Assembly: GCA_002401635.1 (NCBI GenBank)
Contig: NVTQ01000016.1
Span: forward strand, 18,533 to 29,085
Direction: 5' to 3'
Source of the DNA: Pseudomonadota bacterium
Lineage (GTDB): Bacteria; Pseudomonadota; Zetaproteobacteria; Mariprofundales; Mariprofundaceae
Length of the DNA: 10,553 nt
The stretch's first letter is position 1, and each line of letters begins with the position of its first letter. The notes below the pieces were generated by a model, which had not been told where the DNA came from, did no database searches, and was given only the letters and a program-made list of their open reading frames with translations. Positions 1-10,142 of this stretch are shown here, piece by piece. The position numbers and the translations under genes are program-made.

Positions 1-149
1 GGATTCCCGCCTTCGCGGGAATGACGGGGGTGGTGGTACTTTTGGGGTTTTCATTTTTATGGGAATGACGCAGTATCATAGATTCGCCATTCCCGCGATT
101 AGGTGAATTGCAAAGCAGGATATTATCCTCTGGGGGAAGGCGGGAATCC
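1..149. repeat. MITE-like palindromic repeat with 14-bp terminal inverted repeats inside the RM gene
   Basis: Positions 1-14 (GGATTCCCGCCTTC) are the exact reverse complement of 136-149. The left end is itself a hairpin (arms 3-10 and 15-22). The half-site ATTCCCGC recurs at 89-96 and its complement at 140-147, and GGGAATGACG occurs at both 18-27 and 61-70, so the stretch is a mosaic of related units. The ATTCCCGC/GCGGGAAT core resembles a dispersed palindromic repeat common in proteobacterial genomes (from memory). It lies within the open frame of the methylase, after the catalytic domain, and the left end encodes VIPAKAGI. The true left boundary may lie outside the window. No target duplication can be tested. 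Confidence 0.65.
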
Positions 150-2176
150 ATTTCAATCTTCTGCATAATCAAAATCGCAGGGTAAGTCGTTGCCCCTTCA
201 AACACCTGCATATCACCAAAATCGACAATGGTTTCCAACGCTACATGTTGATTAAGAAAATGGCGCAAGGGTTTGCCCGATGCGGTTTTAAAGAAGGTGG
301 ATGATGAGATATAACCCAAGCGACCATTATCTTTAAGCAGCTTGATACCGCGCTCAAAGAAATAAGCATAAAGATCTGCCACGCCATGATACACGCTATA
401 ATTCGCTTCCAAATCAGCTTTATAATGTTTAATCAATTCTTGGCGAACATAAGGCGGATTGCCCAAGATAATATCAAAGCCTCCCTCGACAAACACGTCT
501 GGAAACGCTGCTTGCCAATCAAATGCATCATCCAACAAGCTATTACCCTGCTGGATATTGGCATCAAGGCTGGTTAAAGGTTTGCCTTGTTCAGCGGTTT
601 TCAGCCAAAGCGAGAGTTTGCTGATTTCAATGGATTCGGGGTTGATGTCCACGCCATAAATATTTTGGGTGAGAATGGTTTTATTCAAGTCGAATACAGA
701 GTAACCACCCGTTAAATCATACAAGGCATCGGATACCCTGCGGTATTCTGCATGAAGATAATCAAATGCCGCCACCAAAAATGCACCCGAGCCACAAGCT
801 GGGTCGCAGACTTTTAAGTTCTTCAGAATCTCATCCCGATACGTTTCCCAAAAGGCAATATCTCGCTTTTTGCTGCTGCGCCCTGTTTGTTTGGCTTTGA
901 GCGCATCGAACTGTTGCTTGAGATAACCGCCAATGGTTTCATCCACGATAAAGCGGGTGATGGCATCGGGGGTATAAAACACGCCATCGGTTTTGCGCTT
1001 GCCTGGTAAAAAGGGGACAGTTTCACTTTTTCCTACGGAAGAAAGTAAACTGTCCCCTTTCTTACTCTTCATTTCTTCCAAATCGGTGATGGATTGCTCA
1101 AAAATATGCCCGAGCACAGTCACCGATACTTCCGAAGCAAAATCATACGCCGCCAAAGCCTTGAAATGTTCGCATGCACTAGCAGGAAGACTCAAACCAT
1201 CCAGCAAAGCATCGGGCGCGAATAGCCCGCCATTGTAAGCAGGGATATTGAGCACGGCATTGCCTTTATCCACAGCTTGAAACAAGCCCTGAAAATTGTG
1301 CCAAATCGGGGCAGGATTAAACGCATTACTGCTCTCAAAAGCTTTAAGCAAAATATTATGTGGCAACAAACCCACATCTTCGGCAAAGGCGATAAACAAT
1401 ACGCGGTCGAGAATCTTTTGTGCGGCAGAAATGAGAACCACATCATCAACTTCAGCATTACCAGCACATAACTGCGCGAATAAATCACTGCGAATACTGC
1501 GATAATCATGATACAAACGTTTGGTAATCGCTTTTTCAGCCGCACCCGATTCTTCCAGTAATCTATCGGTGGTGCTGGGCATGTCTTCTTCGATATTACC
1601 AGCAAGGAAATTGGCTTTGCTGAGTAAAAGCTGCAAACGCCAGTATTCGGCTGGTTCGGTGAGTTTGCTGATTTCAAAGGATTCATATTCCGATGGCGTG
1701 CGGCTGGTTGCATAAAGGCGAAGCTCTTTATAATTGGAAACCAATACCCAACGACAGCCCACAACAGCATTGGCATAACGCCATGCTTGTTGCACAGGCG
1801 TATAACCGCGAGACATGGTATGATCCAAACTTGTCATGGCTCCCTTTAATTCAAGCGGGGCAACAAGGCGTTGCTTATGCTCGGAAATAAAGCCAAGTCC
1901 TGCATCGGCTTGGCCAGCGCCAGCAATATGAATTTCGGCTTGGCAATTCCAAATGCCATCATCTGCTGATGTAACACCATCATAACCAAGAATATGCCCG
2001 AAAATATCGGTTAGAAATTCGCCATGTAGAGAGACTTCTTTGATTTTATGCAGTCGCCCCGATTCAAAGCCTTCTTGCCAGCGTTTTAACATGCCTAGGT
2101 GTTGTTCAGGAATCGCTGCGAATTCGCCAAGGCGACGCTTGATTAAACTGGGTTGAAACAATTGAATATGTGCCAC
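1..2176 (-). CDS. Type IIG restriction-modification enzyme (fused nuclease and N6-adenine methylase), 3' end beyond window
   Basis: A single open frame of 725 codons runs off the left edge with no stop, so the C-terminal target-recognition part is missing. The GTG start at 2176 is chosen because a strong GGAGG lies six bases upstream. The N-terminal region has a PD-(D/E)XK-like nuclease signature: Asp91, then Glu109-Leu-Lys111, followed by a Gln130-x3-Tyr134 motif as in type I and IIG nucleases. The methylase follows: motif I DPACGSGAF at 458-466, acidic GVD at 508-510, and catalytic NPPY at 573-576, the signature of N6-adenine methylation (Eco57I/COG1002-like). One polypeptide is therefore expected to cut and to methylate DNA using S-adenosylmethionine. 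Two repeat elements are translated in frame, at residues 373-389 and from about 677 onward. No separate methylase or specificity gene is visible. Whether the enzyme is active cannot be judged without the C-terminus. Confidence 0.88.
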   Translation of the reverse strand, partial: MAHIQLFQPSLIKRRLGEFAAIPEQHLGMLKRWQEGFESGRLHKIKEVSLHGEFLTDIFGHILGYDGVTSADDGIWNCQAEIHIAGAGQADAGLGFISEHKQRLVAPLELKGAMTSLDHTMSRGYTPVQQAWRYANAVVGCRWVLVSNYKELRLYATSRTPSEYESFEISKLTEPAEYWRLQLLLSKANFLAGNIEEDMPSTTDRLLEESGAAEKAITKRLYHDYRSIRSDLFAQLCAGNAEVDDVVLISAAQKILDRVLFIAFAEDVGLLPHNILLKAFESSNAFNPAPIWHNFQGLFQAVDKGNAVLNIPAYNGGLFAPDALLDGLSLPASACEHFKALAAYDFASEVSVTVLGHIFEQSITDLEEMKSKKGDSLLSSVGKSETVPFLPGKRKTDGVFYTPDAITRFIVDETIGGYLKQQFDALKAKQTGRSSKKRDIAFWETYRDEILKNLKVCDPACGSGAFLVAAFDYLHAEYRRVSDALYDLTGGYSVFDLNKTILTQNIYGVDINPESIEISKLSLWLKTAEQGKPLTSLDANIQQGNSLLDDAFDWQAAFPDVFVEGGFDIILGNPPYVRQELIKHYKADLEANYSVYHGVADLYAYFFERGIKLLKDNGRLGYISSSTFFKTASGKPLRHFLNQHVALETIVDFGDMQVFEGATTYPAILIMQKIEMDSRLPPEDNILLCNSPNRGNGESMILRHSHKNENPKSTTTPVIPAKAGI
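1010..1060. repeat. REP-like 51-bp hairpin read in frame within the RM gene
   Basis: Perfect 14-bp arms (1010-1023 and 1047-1060, AAAGGGGACAGTTT and its complement) continue into 1025-1033 paired with 1037-1046. The only interruptions are single-base bulges at 1024 and 1041, and the loop is three bases. The length is 17 codons exactly. It encodes residues 373-389 of the methylase, in the linker just before the KRKTDGVFYTP segment that opens the methylase domain. A GGGGACAGT palindrome resembles REP sequences mobilised by REP-associated Y1 transposases (from memory). No such transposase gene is in the window. Confidence 0.75.
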
Positions 2177-3569: not shown

Positions 3570-3953
3570 TTATTCAACTGGAGTGAACACATGCAAGTCT
3601 AATTCTTGAATCACCGAAAAGTGTTTCTCATTGGCAGAAGCCAAGCCTAGATGATTTTCTACAGCCGTTGCAGCCACAAGCGCATCACCTGCTCGCATGG
3701 CATGTGAAAGCGCATACTCCTCCACATATACAGAAGCACGATGACCAATATTTTCAGTCAAAGGCAATACCGTAAACGCATAATCTTTAAGAAACCTCTG
3801 AATCACCTGATGCTGCCTTTTATTTTTAGCACCTTGCAATAACTCCATATAAGTCTGCGTAGAAATATACCGCTGTTTTGCATTTTCTACCCATTGCGCG
3901 GCTTTTACATGACCTCCTTGCACAAAAATAAGCACATCTGTATCAAACACCAT
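3570..3953 (-). CDS. vapC: PIN-domain toxin, VapC-like ribonuclease
   Basis: This is a 127-residue protein. The ATG at 3953 overlaps the antitoxin stop by one base (TGATG); a TTG one codon earlier is less likely. Acidic residues expected of a PIN active site are present: Asp4/Asp6 in the N-terminal FDTDVLI, Glu37 in TYMELLQ, and Asp90 in RAGDALVAATA. The fourth position, usually Asp, reads Asn108 in SANEKHF. VapC toxins are Mg-dependent endoribonucleases that cut tRNA or rRNA when not held by their antitoxin. The overlapped gene pair and the size both fit a type II module. The exact RNA target cannot be read from the sequence. The next gene downstream on the strand is hisS, 24 bases away. Confidence 0.88.
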   Translation of the reverse strand: MVFDTDVLIFVQGGHVKAAQWVENAKQRYISTQTYMELLQGAKNKRQHQVIQRFLKDYAFTVLPLTENIGHRASVYVEEYALSHAMRAGDALVAATAVENHLGLASANEKHFSVIQELDLHVFTPVE

Positions 3954-4183
3954 CAATAACGACCGTCACGCAACCCTTCCATCACCTGCTCAACAGATTC
4001 ATCCACATCGCCATGCATACCAAAAAAGGCATGCTCAACAACAGGCTCACACACCGCATGCTCTATAGGTAAAATCACAGCCTTTTCCTTGCCATGATAA
4101 AACACCGTCACCGCCTCATGACGATCTACCGCTCGCATAATATCTTTCATGTTACGTCGTAAATCAACGGCATTTGTCTTCAT
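3953..4183 (-). CDS. Phd/YefM-type antitoxin partnering the PIN toxin
   Basis: This is a 76-residue protein. The ATG at 4183 is preferred over an upstream GTG at 4204 because GGAG (4190-4193) sits six bases before the ATG. The N-terminal half (MKTNAVDLRRNMKDIMRAV, then VFYHGKEKAVILPI) has the layout of the Phd/YefM DNA-binding fold: helix, strand, and a KEKAVILP strand. The C-terminal tail FFGMHGD...VMEGLRDGRY resembles the toxin-wrapping tail seen in Phd-family partners of PIN toxins. It would neutralise the toxin and repress its own promoter. The coding frame ends in TGATG, overlapping the toxin start and coupling their translation. Confidence 0.85.
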   Translation of the reverse strand: MKTNAVDLRRNMKDIMRAVDRHEAVTVFYHGKEKAVILPIEHAVCEPVVEHAFFGMHGDVDESVEQVMEGLRDGRY

Positions 4184-4480
4184 GCAAAACTCCAATATGA
4201 ACACTTTCTATGCACACTTTAAGCTTTTATGCGTTTCGCGCAAGCCATGCAGCATAATCATTTTTCGAGATACTTCTTTAGGAAAACACTGATCAACTCA
4301 ATGCATGGCAATCAAGCGTCCGTCATCACCAATTTCTACATTGGCTATCTTATCAATAGCGTTAACAGTTCTCACCTTAGTATTAGCGATTTTGAATCCC
4401 ATAACTTGTCATCCAGAGTTAATCAGCACTTTCCTAAAGAGAGAAAAAATAATTTCCTGCTATTATTAATAACCTTCCAG
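4184..4480. other. Gene-free AT-rich region upstream of the toxin-antitoxin pair
   Basis: I see no supported gene here. The stretch should hold the antitoxin promoter and operator on the minus strand, but no convincing -35/-10 pair stood out. An 8-bp inverted repeat, GCCATGCA at 4244-4251 and TGCATGGC at 4302-4309, is a weak operator candidate. An open frame at 4229-4495 on the plus strand lacks a ribosome site and any recognisable domain. Confidence 0.4.
4190..4193 (-). promoter_or_regulatory. Shine-Dalgarno deciding the antitoxin start
   Basis: GGAG on the minus strand, six bases from ATG 4183. It lies inside the longer GTG-started reading (4204), which favours the shorter protein. Confidence 0.5.
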
Positions 4481-4631
4481 CATTTTAGCATTTAAAGGGT
4501 AGGATAACCTCTATATAGATTCTCCTCAGAAACTAAAATAATTATAAATACCAACAAGAAATGATTATTTGAATAGTGTTTGGTGTAAGTTTTTACATGA
4601 ATGTGAGCGTAAAAGCTTGCAGGAGATTGCT

Positions 4632-4659
4632 GTTCTTTCTTGCGTTCCCAAGAAAGAAC
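4632..4659. repeat. Perfect 11-bp hairpin nested in the MITE-like element
   Basis: GTTCTTTCTTG (4632-4642) is the exact reverse complement of 4649-4659, with a six-base loop. The flank continues as CAAAGAAGGGAACCC. From memory, palindromes of the type GGTTCTTTCTTG...CAAGAAAGAACC followed by CAAAGAA occur as dispersed intergenic repeats in several proteobacteria. There is no T-tract, so this is not a typical terminator. Confidence 0.7.
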
Positions 4660-4701
4660 CAAAGAAGGGAACCCTGGGAATCTGCTTGCTTCCTTCACTT
4701 A

Positions 4702-4749
4702 CAGCTATGAAAAGGGCACGTGTTACTGCGCTTTTCCTTTTCATAGCTG
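4702..4749. repeat. Perfect 14-bp inverted repeat nested in the MITE-like element
   Basis: CAGCTATGAAAAGG (4702-4715) is the exact reverse complement of 4736-4749, around a 20-base GC-richer loop. Together with the hairpin at 4632-4659 it would give the element two stable stems. Confidence 0.7.
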
Positions 4750-5013
4750 ACGTTACGGCGCAGCTAGACAGGGAAAGCAGTCCGCCACACTTGGTTTTTC
4801 TCTGTATCTCTGTGGTGAAAAATAAAAATATCGAGTTTCTGAGGAAGCTCTATATAAAGCGGCTTAAAAATGTCATTTTAGCCTTTACTATCAAGCCATT
4901 ATAGGCATCATGCCAGACTGCGCATGCTATCCTATATTGCATGCTTGCAGAGAGTTATCTACGAAAAATGGGCTTTACGTTACAAGTAGATCAAACTCTT
5001 TTAGAGAGGTGAA

Positions 5014-5411: not shown

Positions 5412-6521
5412 TCACGCTTTAATTTCATGATCTTTTTCAGCACGAATCACAGCAGCGCGCTTTTCTACTTCTTCCACTAAAGAATCAATCATATTTGATG
5501 ATTTCACACGCCCGAATTTCTCGCCATCATGGTAAAAAGTATGGGTTGGGTAACCGCCCGTGATACCCACCTGCACTTCTTGCGCCTCACCAGGGCCATT
5601 GACCACACAACCAATTACCGCCACATCCAAAGGCTCCTGAATGTGCGCTAGACGTGCTTCTAGCTCTTGTACAACTTCAATCACGTTAAACTTTTGACGT
5701 GCGCACGATGGGCAAGCAATCAAATTCACACCGCGATGTCTTAAACCAAGACTTTTCAAGATTTCAAAGCCGACTTTAATTTCTTCTTTTGGTTCGGCAG
5801 CCAGCGATACACGCACTGTATCACCGATGCCATCGGCTAAAATCAAACCGAGTCCCACCGATGATTTGACTGTGCCACCAAACAAGCTACCAGACTCAGT
5901 AATACCCAAATGAAATGGATAATCAACTTTTTCGGCTAATTTTCGATACGCCATCACAGTCATCGGAATATTGCTGGCTTTGAGCGATATTTTAATGTCG
6001 TTAAAATTCATATCTTCAAGAATACGAATATGCCGCAATGCCGAATCAACCATAGCATCCGCACATGGTTCGCCATACTTATCATTAAACTCTTTTTCAA
6101 GTGAACCTGCATTCACACCGATACGAATCGATACATTTTTTTCCTGTGCGGCTTTAACCACCCGTTCCACACGCTCTTGGCTACCAATATTACCTGGATT
6201 TAAGCGTAGACCATGCACACCCGCATCCAATGATAATAACGCCATTTTGTAGCTGAAATGAATATCCGCGATAATCGGCACGTCTGTCTGCGCTAAAATT
6301 TCAGGCATTGCCGCAGCAGATTCCGCATCTGGCACCGAAATGCGTACAATATCTGCCCCCGCTTCTTCCAAGGAATGAACTTGGGCTACGGTGGCATCAA
6401 TATCGGTGGTTAACGTGTTGGTCATCGATTGTACGGCAATCGGAGCATCACCACCGACTGGCACATCGCCGACCATAATCTGCCGCGTTTTGCGGCGTGG
6501 CATCACTATCGTATCACGCAT
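5412..6521 (-). CDS. ispG: 4-hydroxy-3-methylbut-2-enyl diphosphate synthase (flavodoxin/ferredoxin)
   Basis: IspG (GcpE) converts 2-C-methyl-erythritol 2,4-cyclodiphosphate to HMBPP in the MEP isoprenoid pathway, using a [4Fe-4S] cluster. The 369-residue length matches the short proteobacterial form. The TIM-barrel start has [13 protein letters not shown] at 28-40, and RLNPGNIG is at 106-113. The cluster ligands are Cys270 and Cys273 in ACPSCAR, Cys305 in [11 protein letters not shown], and Glu312, the same numbering as E. coli. The ATG at 6521 has AAGGAT six bases upstream. It is last in a four-gene minus-strand run, 66 bases after the lipoprotein gene, with no terminator visible between, so it probably shares transcription with the signalling genes. 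Confidence 0.97.
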
Positions 6522-6587
6522 GGTTTATCCTTATCTCGCAATCATTCAATCATATTATTTCGAGCTGCTGCAATTAAAATTTAAGCC

Positions 6588-7709
6588 TTACTCCAAATCA
6601 CTGCGTAACAAGTGCAAGCGCTCTTGCAACTGCATCGCACGACGCAGTGCATCTACATATTCAGAGTTCTCTGGCTGCATGCTCACAGCCTGATCCCACA
6701 ACTTCACAGCAGCATCAATATGCTCTCTTCGAAATGCTGATGAGCCTTGCGCAAACAATGCAGATGCGGCTTTTTCCAAACCAGCATTCACCGCTTTCAA
6801 AAGCTCGTCCGCGCCTTTACCGTCATAACGACGATACAACAATGCAGCATCCTTGGCTTGCAACCACTTTGCCTGCTTCATCAACTTGGTCACATCCGAC
6901 TTACGGATGCTATGCTCTTTTGCAGGTGTTTTTTTACGCACTTTTTTCACTATCGTTTTCTTGCCAAGTGCCCTGACAAGCAAACCTTTGGGCATAACCT
7001 CGCGCACATCCAGCATCAAACGCTGACCTTTCTCTGAAGCTGGCATTAATCGCAAATATGATTCCGCTTCAATATATGCCACACCAACCATATCCTTATT
7101 TAAATAGCGTCGCGCTTCTCTATAAGAACGCGCCGCACGATCCTCAAGGTCGCTCTCGATAGATGCGCGCATACGAGAAAAAGCAGTATCTGCGGGCTTA
7201 ACACCATGGGGAGGCTCATAAGATCGCGACCAACGTATCCATGCATCATCTTCCAAACGGCGTTGTTTCAGCAATACATCCATACGCTTCTGGCGCATTT
7301 TCAACTCCATATTGCTCACATAGGCGAGAAAAATACTGGGCTTTGCAGAGAACTCTGCCGCCTGCTGGTAAAACACCATGGCTTTTGACCAATCATGACC
7401 TTTCTCGGCCTTTTTGCCCTTGGCTTTGTAGTGCCTGAGTAGGCGAATACGGGCTGGATTAATCTTATTTTTCAACAATGCTTGCGCTTGTTTGTAGTCA
7501 TCGCGCCCAGTATCCATTGCCAATACTCGAGCCCTTGCTTCCATCACTTTGCCCGCATTATAATCCTGCAATGCCATGCTATAACTGTTTAAAAATGAAA
7601 GGGCTGAACCCTTAATATGCGCCCCGCCACTGCCTGTCACGCAGCCTGTTAAAAAAAGACAGCTCGCAATCACAAGTAGCCCGTATTTATTTAATGAGTT
7701 TGATTTCAT
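6588..7709 (-). CDS. TPR-like lipoprotein coupled to the adenylate cyclase
   Basis: This is a 373-residue protein. The ATG at 7709 overlaps the cyclase stop by one base (TGATG), implying translational coupling; a GTG one codon earlier is less likely. The signal peptide (hydrophobic residues 10-20) ends in a good lipobox, LTGC, with Cys23 as the lipidated residue. Residues after Cys are Val-Thr, so outer-membrane sorting would be expected by the E. coli rule. The mature part is almost wholly helical: tetratricopeptide-like pairs around 104-133 (HDWSKAMVFYQQAAEF) and a clear TPR-like unit at 317-355 ending AVSMQPENSEYVDAL. A strongly basic linker, KKTIVKKVRKK, lies at 250-260. I do not recognise a named family. 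A role as periplasmic scaffold or sensor partner of the cyclase is inferred from gene order only. Confidence 0.85.
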   Translation of the reverse strand: MKSNSLNKYGLLVIASCLFLTGCVTGSGGAHIKGSALSFLNSYSMALQDYNAGKVMEARARVLAMDTGRDDYKQAQALLKNKINPARIRLLRHYKAKGKKAEKGHDWSKAMVFYQQAAEFSAKPSIFLAYVSNMELKMRQKRMDVLLKQRRLEDDAWIRWSRSYEPPHGVKPADTAFSRMRASIESDLEDRAARSYREARRYLNKDMVGVAYIEAESYLRLMPASEKGQRLMLDVREVMPKGLLVRALGKKTIVKKVRKKTPAKEHSIRKSDVTKLMKQAKWLQAKDAALLYRRYDGKGADELLKAVNAGLEKAASALFAQGSSAFRREHIDAAVKLWDQAVSMQPENSEYVDALRRAMQLQERLHLLRSDLE

Positions 7710-10093: not shown

Positions 10094-10110
10094 GAACCTT
10101 GCTCCCTATA

Positions 10111-10142
10111 CAATCAGACAATCAGACAATCAGACAATCATC
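10111..10142. repeat. 8-bp tandem repeat upstream of the diguanylate cyclase operon
   Basis: CAATCAGA is repeated exactly three times (10111-10134), followed by a partial copy, CAATCA. It lies 17 bases before the start codon of the minus-strand diguanylate cyclase gene, within the 153-base region shared with divergent yhbY. It falls in the leader or promoter of the operon, where copy-number change would alter spacing. The rest of 10094-10246 holds no gene, and I could not place a convincing promoter for either direction. Confidence 0.85.

Follow-up and report, generated by a model that had tools for sequence, protein, structure and literature searches.

Two palindromic repeats probably inserted in frame into two linkers of one type IIG-like restriction-modification enzyme of a Mariprofundaceae bacterium

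The stretch of DNA analysed here (the window, 10,553 nucleotides) covers positions 18,533 to 29,085 of contig NVTQ01000016.1 of a Pseudomonadota bacterium of the family Mariprofundaceae (assembly GCA_002401635.1). At its left end lies a type IIG-like restriction-modification gene whose open reading frame (ORF) runs through two different palindromic repeats, a GGGGACAG hairpin (insert 1) and a head-to-head dimer of CGTC-tagged repetitive extragenic palindromic (REP) sequences (insert 2). We consider it very probable that two linkers of this one enzyme were lengthened by mobile palindromes, each inserted separately and in frame. Our data show that both sites are longer by palindrome DNA, that the frames are kept, that the ratio of non-synonymous to synonymous substitution rates (dN/dS) is low against a relative carrying insert 2, and that the insert-1 family occurs in frame in unrelated genes, including ftsK. 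The two inserts differ in distribution and probably in age. The host genome (G000, in which the window is C67:18533-29085) is 2.1 Mb long and 79% complete, and G002 and G003 are congeneric genomes. The Mariprofundaceae relatives of the host are iron oxidisers.

In the ORF list, a minus-strand frame without stop extends from position 2176 to window base 2, and when the locus is followed past the window edge the complete ORF comprises 1118 stop-free codons (L003:5353-8709) spanning both 1010-1060 and 1-150, in agreement with an earlier note on this DNA, made from the letters alone, in which one frame was read through both palindromes. One of these codons, directly left of window base 1, holds an ambiguous base, and the public protein P0001 equals the window enzyme except for H at that codon. 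Domain searches found Eco57I, N6_Mtase and MmeI_Mtase domains in the enzyme, the top PADLOC model was REase_MTase_IIG (401 bits) and PF12950 is listed for most close homologues, the closest named ones being from Ghiorsea sp. (74% identity, partial) and from a Mariprofundaceae bacterium (63%). An alignment was made of 18 proteins chosen from 120 listed (5778 at E <= 1e-30; P0007 and P0009 are partial), in which D91, E109, K111, DPACGSG and NPPY are all invariant; the D, E and K residues we take to be a nuclease motif, from PD-(D/E)XK enzymes. Judged on sequence, the enzyme has the make-up of type IIG, with a putative fused nuclease motif, an N6-adenine methylase core and a recognition region. 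The inserts flank the methylase core on both sides and leave its motifs untouched, the invariant DPACGSG and NPPY lying between them (Table 1), and the earlier statement that the repeats lie outside the catalytic motifs is thus correct.

Table 1. Positions in the window of the enzyme gene, its motifs (the nuclease motif is presumed) and its two inserts.
Feature	Position	Strand	Residues or parts	Basis
Type IIG-like restriction-modification gene	1..2176	-	residues 1-725 of 1118; runs on left of window	ORF and domain searches
Presumed nuclease motif D91...E109-L-K111	1844..1906	-		invariant alignment columns
Insert 1, GGGGACAG hairpin	1010..1060	-	coding residues 373-389, KGDSLLSSVGKSETVPF	hairpin, fold, absence from relatives, dispersed copies
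Methylase motif DPACGSG	785..805	-	residues 458-464, between both inserts	invariant alignment columns
Catalytic motif NPPY	449..460	-	residues 573-576, between both inserts	invariant alignment columns
Insert 2, head-to-head dimer of CGTC-tagged REPs	1..150	-	residues ~676-725 (MDSRLPPEDN...PVIPAKAGI)	
CGTC unit A	1..26	-	tag CGTC 26-23; stem ATTCCCGC/GCGGGAAT 22-15 and 10-3; loop GAAG 14-11; tail CC 2-1 plus ambiguous base	
CGTC unit B	85..150	+	degenerate tag CGCC 85-88; stem 89-96 and 140-147; loop 97-139; tail CCA 148-150	

The arms of insert 1 pair at 20 of 24 positions, compared with 14-15 in five mononucleotide shuffles of the window, and none of 200 shuffles reaches an equally stable DNA fold (z = -7.1), so that the 51-bp hairpin previously read as 17 codons stands as such. 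A hairpin arisen by chance was considered and is ruled out by the pairing, the fold shuffles and the dispersed 20-nt word described below. Residues 373-389 are missing from all 17 other aligned homologues (insert 1 is in 1 of the 18) and insert 1 is also absent from the DNA of both congeneric loci, as the earlier note had expected of relatives. Between MK and GKRKTDG the host linker has 21 residues (SKKGDSLLSSVGKSETVPFLP), whereas it reads GGDIDL in G003 and P0003, GGDIHL in G002 and P0009 and GEAQGEKSL in P0002 and P0007, that is, 6 or 9 residues, and the net length gain is +45 nt relative to both G002 and G003. The bases common to the copies of insert 1 extend to about 1007-1064 (about 58 nt), and the 51 bp probably do not represent the exact ends of the element. 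At either end of the hairpin, GGGGACAG provides the GGGGWSAS end motif.

The insert-1 core of 20 nt, GGGGACAGTTTACTTTCTTC, searched with at most one mismatch, has 10 copies in 5 of 398 Pseudomonadota genomes, all Mariprofundaceae, and the reversed-pattern control gave 0 copies. Five strict full copies have identical asymmetric arms, and the carriers include other genera of the family (G014, with three copies, and G022). Since the hairpin, single-copy in the host, recurs across four further family genomes, it constitutes a repeat family; the expectation that both repeats would be multi-copy in the host therefore stood for the CGTC palindrome of insert 2 and failed for the hairpin, a uniqueness that had been named in advance as refuting the idea. 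A repeat confined to one locus is accordingly what the host genome shows, but is ruled out at the family level by the copies in relatives. A looser blastn search, run with 61 nt against 74 genomes of the family, had matches in 34 at E <= 1 and in 8 at E <= 1e-3 (G000, G011, G014, G022, G058, G062, G066 and G071), three of them beyond the strict five and holding degenerate copies: two at G011:C158, in short frames only, one at G058:C334 within a 185-residue frame and a 29-nt piece at G062:C86 within a 446-residue frame, the latter two frames being putative genes. Degenerate copies also occur at G066:C361 (short frames) and G022:C79, the latter a second copy in a kinase. A blastn search with 71 bases at E 1e-5 gave no sign of carriage by phages or plasmids, neither collection holding a match. 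In a broad scan of named genomes, the pattern AAGGGGACAGTN{5,35}ACTGTCCCCTT retrieved at least 120 stretches holding 122 copies; in 80 of these stretches the insert-1 sequence was found in none except the added Mariprofundaceae copies, and the rest share mainly GGGGACAGT ends. At least one stop-free frame crosses 107 of the 122 copies, and for 13 the best frame stays open over >=100 aa to either side; these 13 are putative genes and include the G022 kinase counted below.

Five of the ten strict copies lie in frame within genes, three are located at the start of a gene or close to it (Fe-S_biosyn according to Pfam, and cysC-like and pstC-like genes, whose translations were read by eye) and two are intergenic. 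Besides the window enzyme, the proteins with internal copies are two hybrid histidine kinases of G022 that are paralogues of each other, FtsK in G066 and, in G071, a protein with an FGE-sulfatase domain. The peptide KGDSLLSSxxxSETVP is common, in the same frame, to the window enzyme, FtsK and one histidine kinase, while the second kinase, a 71% identical paralogue of the first, retains only the first half of the element and of the peptide; the first kinase also holds the degenerate second copy. One frame is used by four of the five internal copies, two of which are the paralogous kinases, so that no statistical claim is made. For FtsK, 30 genomes with loci were aligned out of 63 with FtsK, the host's own not being included, and the insert is absent from all 29 relatives, with a gain of 18 residues (54 nt) over the nearest, G058 (92% identical), and of 19 (57 nt) over five others measured. 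The FGE-domain protein, compared with 4 of the 12 other genomes carrying it (a motif filter removed the remaining ones), is longer by 22 residues (66 nt) than all four distinct aligned relatives, and its copy of the element is translated from the other strand, in another frame. For the kinases, 7 rows were aligned from 15 matches in 13 genomes (3 were dropped as lacking the chosen motif in any frame and 5 were not taken). On these alignments, FtsK is the clearest capture of the palindrome as a peptide outside the window enzyme, and the proposal that repeat capture is a source of linker peptides thus extends to other genes. All net gains (45, 54-57 and 66 nt) are multiples of three, and it was probably selection, acting on imprecise events, that preserved the frame. 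Left of the FtsK insert, at L221 (G066:C255), two tandem copies of AATAAGGGGGAC adjoin the hairpin, a pattern that duplication of an element end would give.

Insert 2 has the architecture of a REP dimer (fold z = -4.5). The ambiguous third base of the unit A tail is implied to be A by the H of P0001, giving CCA, and the unit B loop of 43 nt exceeds the usual 4 by 39 nt. The ATTCCCGC palindrome is found at 10 places in the host genome, and a tagged CGTC search gave 10 matches on 9 palindromes in the host and was positive in 32 of 74 family genomes; in an open-frame screen, only the window copy among the 10 strict host palindromes has an open frame of >42 residues on both sides. Residues from about 676 onward are present in 2 of the 18 aligned proteins (the window enzyme and P0003, a metagenomic protein with an insert at the same site) and in the congener G003; 15 of the 18 are without them and P0009 ends at the site, while the G002 locus is cut off before it. 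Their proposed absence from relatives therefore held for most homologues but not for P0003 and G003. The linker at this site measures 56 residues in the host, 50 in G003 and 65 in P0003, compared with 9-10 in P0002, P0004 and P0005, and the frame is kept in all three carriers; P0006 and P0007 have short unrelated extras. In the G003 gene the dimer is head-to-head with both palindromic units intact, each with a 4-nt loop (2 of 2). The simplest reading of these sequences would be one insertion before the G000/G003 split. The extra 39 nt in the loop at 97-139, which hold a small palindrome, AGGATAATATCCT, are absent from the G003 gene, and a 21-nt word of this loop occurs at one place only among 331 fetched loci.

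The palindromes could alternatively have been born in place, by drift or hairpin-templated mutation in fast-evolving linkers, and both linkers do vary in length among homologues while the net gains differ from the length of the element. We regard this origin as extremely improbable, because the 20-nt word of insert 1 stands at ten places in only five of the genomes searched, the remaining 393 lacking it, because the five full copies agree in the asymmetry of their arms, and because insert 2 corresponds to a multi-copy family of repeats already described.

Between G000 and G003, 802 codons give a dN/dS of 0.098 and the 107 codons downstream of insert 2 one of 0.197; in three pairwise comparisons the ratio ranges from 0.07 to 0.10. 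If insert 2 is shared by G000 and G003, the gene was therefore under purifying selection while carrying it; the low dN/dS would bear on insert 2, insert 1 having no sister carrier. Restriction genes are often lost, and a decaying, non-functional gene might collect insertions, its open frame being a coincidence of recent insertion; insert 1 in this gene is known from the host genome only, and two repeats in one gene could signal relaxed constraint. Such decay is unlikely, given the low dN/dS, the intact catalytic motifs, the 1118 codons without stop (one with an ambiguous base) and the insert-2 linkers that keep the frame at three different lengths. An adaptive role, in which the added peptides alter the spacing of methylase and target recognition or the palindromes act in the messenger, would be in agreement with the presence of an insert 2 in G000, G003 and P0003 and with the intact units of G003; we find it very unlikely, as the interior of insert 2 varies freely in sequence and length among its carriers, as is the case for a tolerated linker. 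An AlphaFold2 model built from the 18-row alignment (mean predicted local distance difference test, pLDDT, 70.6) falls below pLDDT 50 where the inserts are, at 375-402 and 678-724, and the model fits the inserts being tolerated linkers.

The host genome has 8 matches to Y1 transposases, of which five have inverted GGGGACA (GGGGACAC) or GGGGTCAG ends on either side (2 of 8 with GGGGACACAAT and 3 of 8 with GGGGTCAG); by sequence, these ends fit the GGGGWSAS motif of TIRYT transposases. Among the stretches of the broad scan there are 2 matches to Y1-like genes, one clearly bracketed, and a distant Y1 gene in a Firestonebacteria record (L147, about 6172-6918) is bracketed by two GGGGACAGTCACGTGACTGTCCCC palindromes. 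We propose that insert 2 came first, at a site separating the methylase core from the C-terminal target-recognition part and most simply before G000 and G003 diverged, and that insert 1, whose exact core is found only in Mariprofundaceae, probably entered later, just before the methylase domain. The hairpin could move as a single-stranded palindrome recognised by a Y1 transposase associated with REPs or terminal inverted repeats (TIR), of the TIRYT type. Selection would spare those insertions that land in exposed loops and leave the frame intact, and the added peptide would be a tolerated, mostly polar linker without specific function.

Several observations weigh against the two insertions as we propose them. 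Within insert 2, the interior sequences of G000 and G003 give a poor alignment, and independent or repeated insertion at one hotspot is possible. Insert 1 is single-copy in the host in a close-copy search, and no net gain equals 51 or about 58 nt, native bases having been lost or changed, with no clean target site. The kinase copies sit in linkers that vary in all aligned relatives, which makes them weaker evidence. The value of dS is near saturation (0.9-1.4), nine segments of the model in all are below 50 pLDDT, that is, seven besides the insert segments, and the low pLDDT at the insert columns comes partly from missing alignment rows. As regards mobility, GGGGACAG lies beside none of the 8 Y1 matches in the 79% complete host genome, the insert-1 palindrome GGGGACAGTTTACTT flanks none of the Y1 genes examined, among which no cognate transposase was found, and inverted GGGG-type ends on both sides occur in only 2 of 6 Y1 genes of G014 and 1 of 3 examined in G022. 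That a single enzyme holds captures of two classes is striking but may be luck: a post-hoc estimate (10 x 3.4/2105, for ten CGTC palindromes and one hairpin in 2.1 Mb) gives a shared 3.4-kb gene about once per 60 such genomes. We lean slightly towards the view that the Mariprofundaceae hairpin of the GGGGWSAS (TIRYT) class is mobile and acts as a palindromic element coding for protein, with five of the ten strict copies in frame, mostly as KGDSLLSSxxxSETVP and one of them in the DNA translocase FtsK; coding capture would then be general for Y1-transposase repeats of several tag classes, instead of being peculiar to Rickettsia or to GTAG and CGTC REPs.

The window holds other features. Between larger genes, at 4509-4859, an inverted repeat of 26 nt (85% complementary, 299 nt apart) resembles a miniature inverted-repeat element, and near it, at 4275-4440, lies another of 25 nt (84% complementary, 116 nt apart). 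Overlapping small ORFs at 3570-4204 encode a PIN-domain protein (above the Pfam cut-off) and a Phd/YefM-like antitoxin (below the cut-off), a probable toxin-antitoxin pair on these matches. Just upstream of a GGDEF-domain gene, at 10110-10141, AATCAGAC forms about four head-to-tail repeats, a possible variable tract. On the same contig left of the window, L003 has many ambiguous bases at about 1700-2000, where the assembly is imperfect.

These results bring a further sequence class of protein-coding palindrome, and with an FtsK empty site in a 92% identical protein the step from selfish DNA to linker becomes directly visible. Two insert classes in one enzyme suggest that the loops of dispensable, and even central, proteins filter mobile palindromes. 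A further caution is that VIPAKAGI, MDSRLRGND, KGDSLLSS and similar stretches of predicted proteins can be repeat DNA in translation.

As for known systems, the enzyme resembles the type IIG enzymes MmeI and BsaXI (PDB 5hr4, 8w0p) in its methylase core, which aligns, and in being a single chain, but its sequence matches to these solved chains cover the methylase part only. For the repeats, we compare with the excerpts of the papers cited. CGTC-1 REPs are described there with a CGTC tag, an 8-bp stem, a 4-nt loop and a CCA tail, mainly as head-to-head dimers (PMC3733652); insert 2 shares the tag, an 8-bp stem (ATTCCCGC), the 4-nt loop in unit A, the CC(A) tail, the head-to-head arrangement, the multiple copies and the occasional intragenic position, and differs in the degenerate tag and 43-nt loop of unit B. 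According to the same excerpts, CGTC repeats have no association with transposase genes, while GGGGWSAS repeats are the terminal inverted repeats of TIRYT, or TnpA-REP subclass 2.1, transposases (PMC3733652, PMC6006769). Insert 1 is like these in that GGGGACAG fits GGGGWSAS, that five host Y1 genes have such inverted ends and that the distant Y1 gene of L147 has GGGGACAG palindromes at both its sides, but no Y1 gene among those examined has its exact palindrome. The excerpts on enterobacterial RU elements (intragenic, 103-168 bp; PMC2759123) and on Coxiella QMITEs (intragenic, QMITE2 150-190 bp; PMC5896051) likewise describe small mobile sequences that extend or interrupt frames in frame; RU and QMITE2 are longer and of other sequences. 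The nearest comparison is that with the palindromic elements of Rickettsia (RPE).

Mariprofundaceae are not intracellular bacteria of the Rickettsia kind. As with RPE, the palindromes stand in frame in unrelated genes with a recurring peptide (restriction-modification enzyme, FtsK and kinase, with half in the second kinase); they differ in having few copies per genome, the hairpin is of another sequence class, and the likeness comes from descriptions, not from letter-by-letter alignment. The in-frame palindromes of Rickettsia are reviewed in PMC10969869, and the excerpts of PMC3733652 equate intragenic repeats of R. conorii with RPE-4 and RPE-6 and place them among CGTC repeats, so that insert 2 would belong to the same superfamily as some RPEs, which is closer than analogy. 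The likeness to Rickettsia elements drawn in the earlier note is therefore apt, although intragenic REPs outside Rickettsia were already published: those excerpts catalogue them, for GTAG and CGTC only, from several species, with many of them located in genes for DNA synthesis and repair. Insert 2 is one more case of these intragenic CGTC REPs. For GGGGWSAS palindromes as coding sequence, or for such repeats in Zetaproteobacteria, no report was found among the matches listed from the open-licence literature, supplementary files being outside its scope. Coding palindromes are thus already known as a concept, and it is the GGGGWSAS-type palindrome as a protein-coding element that appears to be new.

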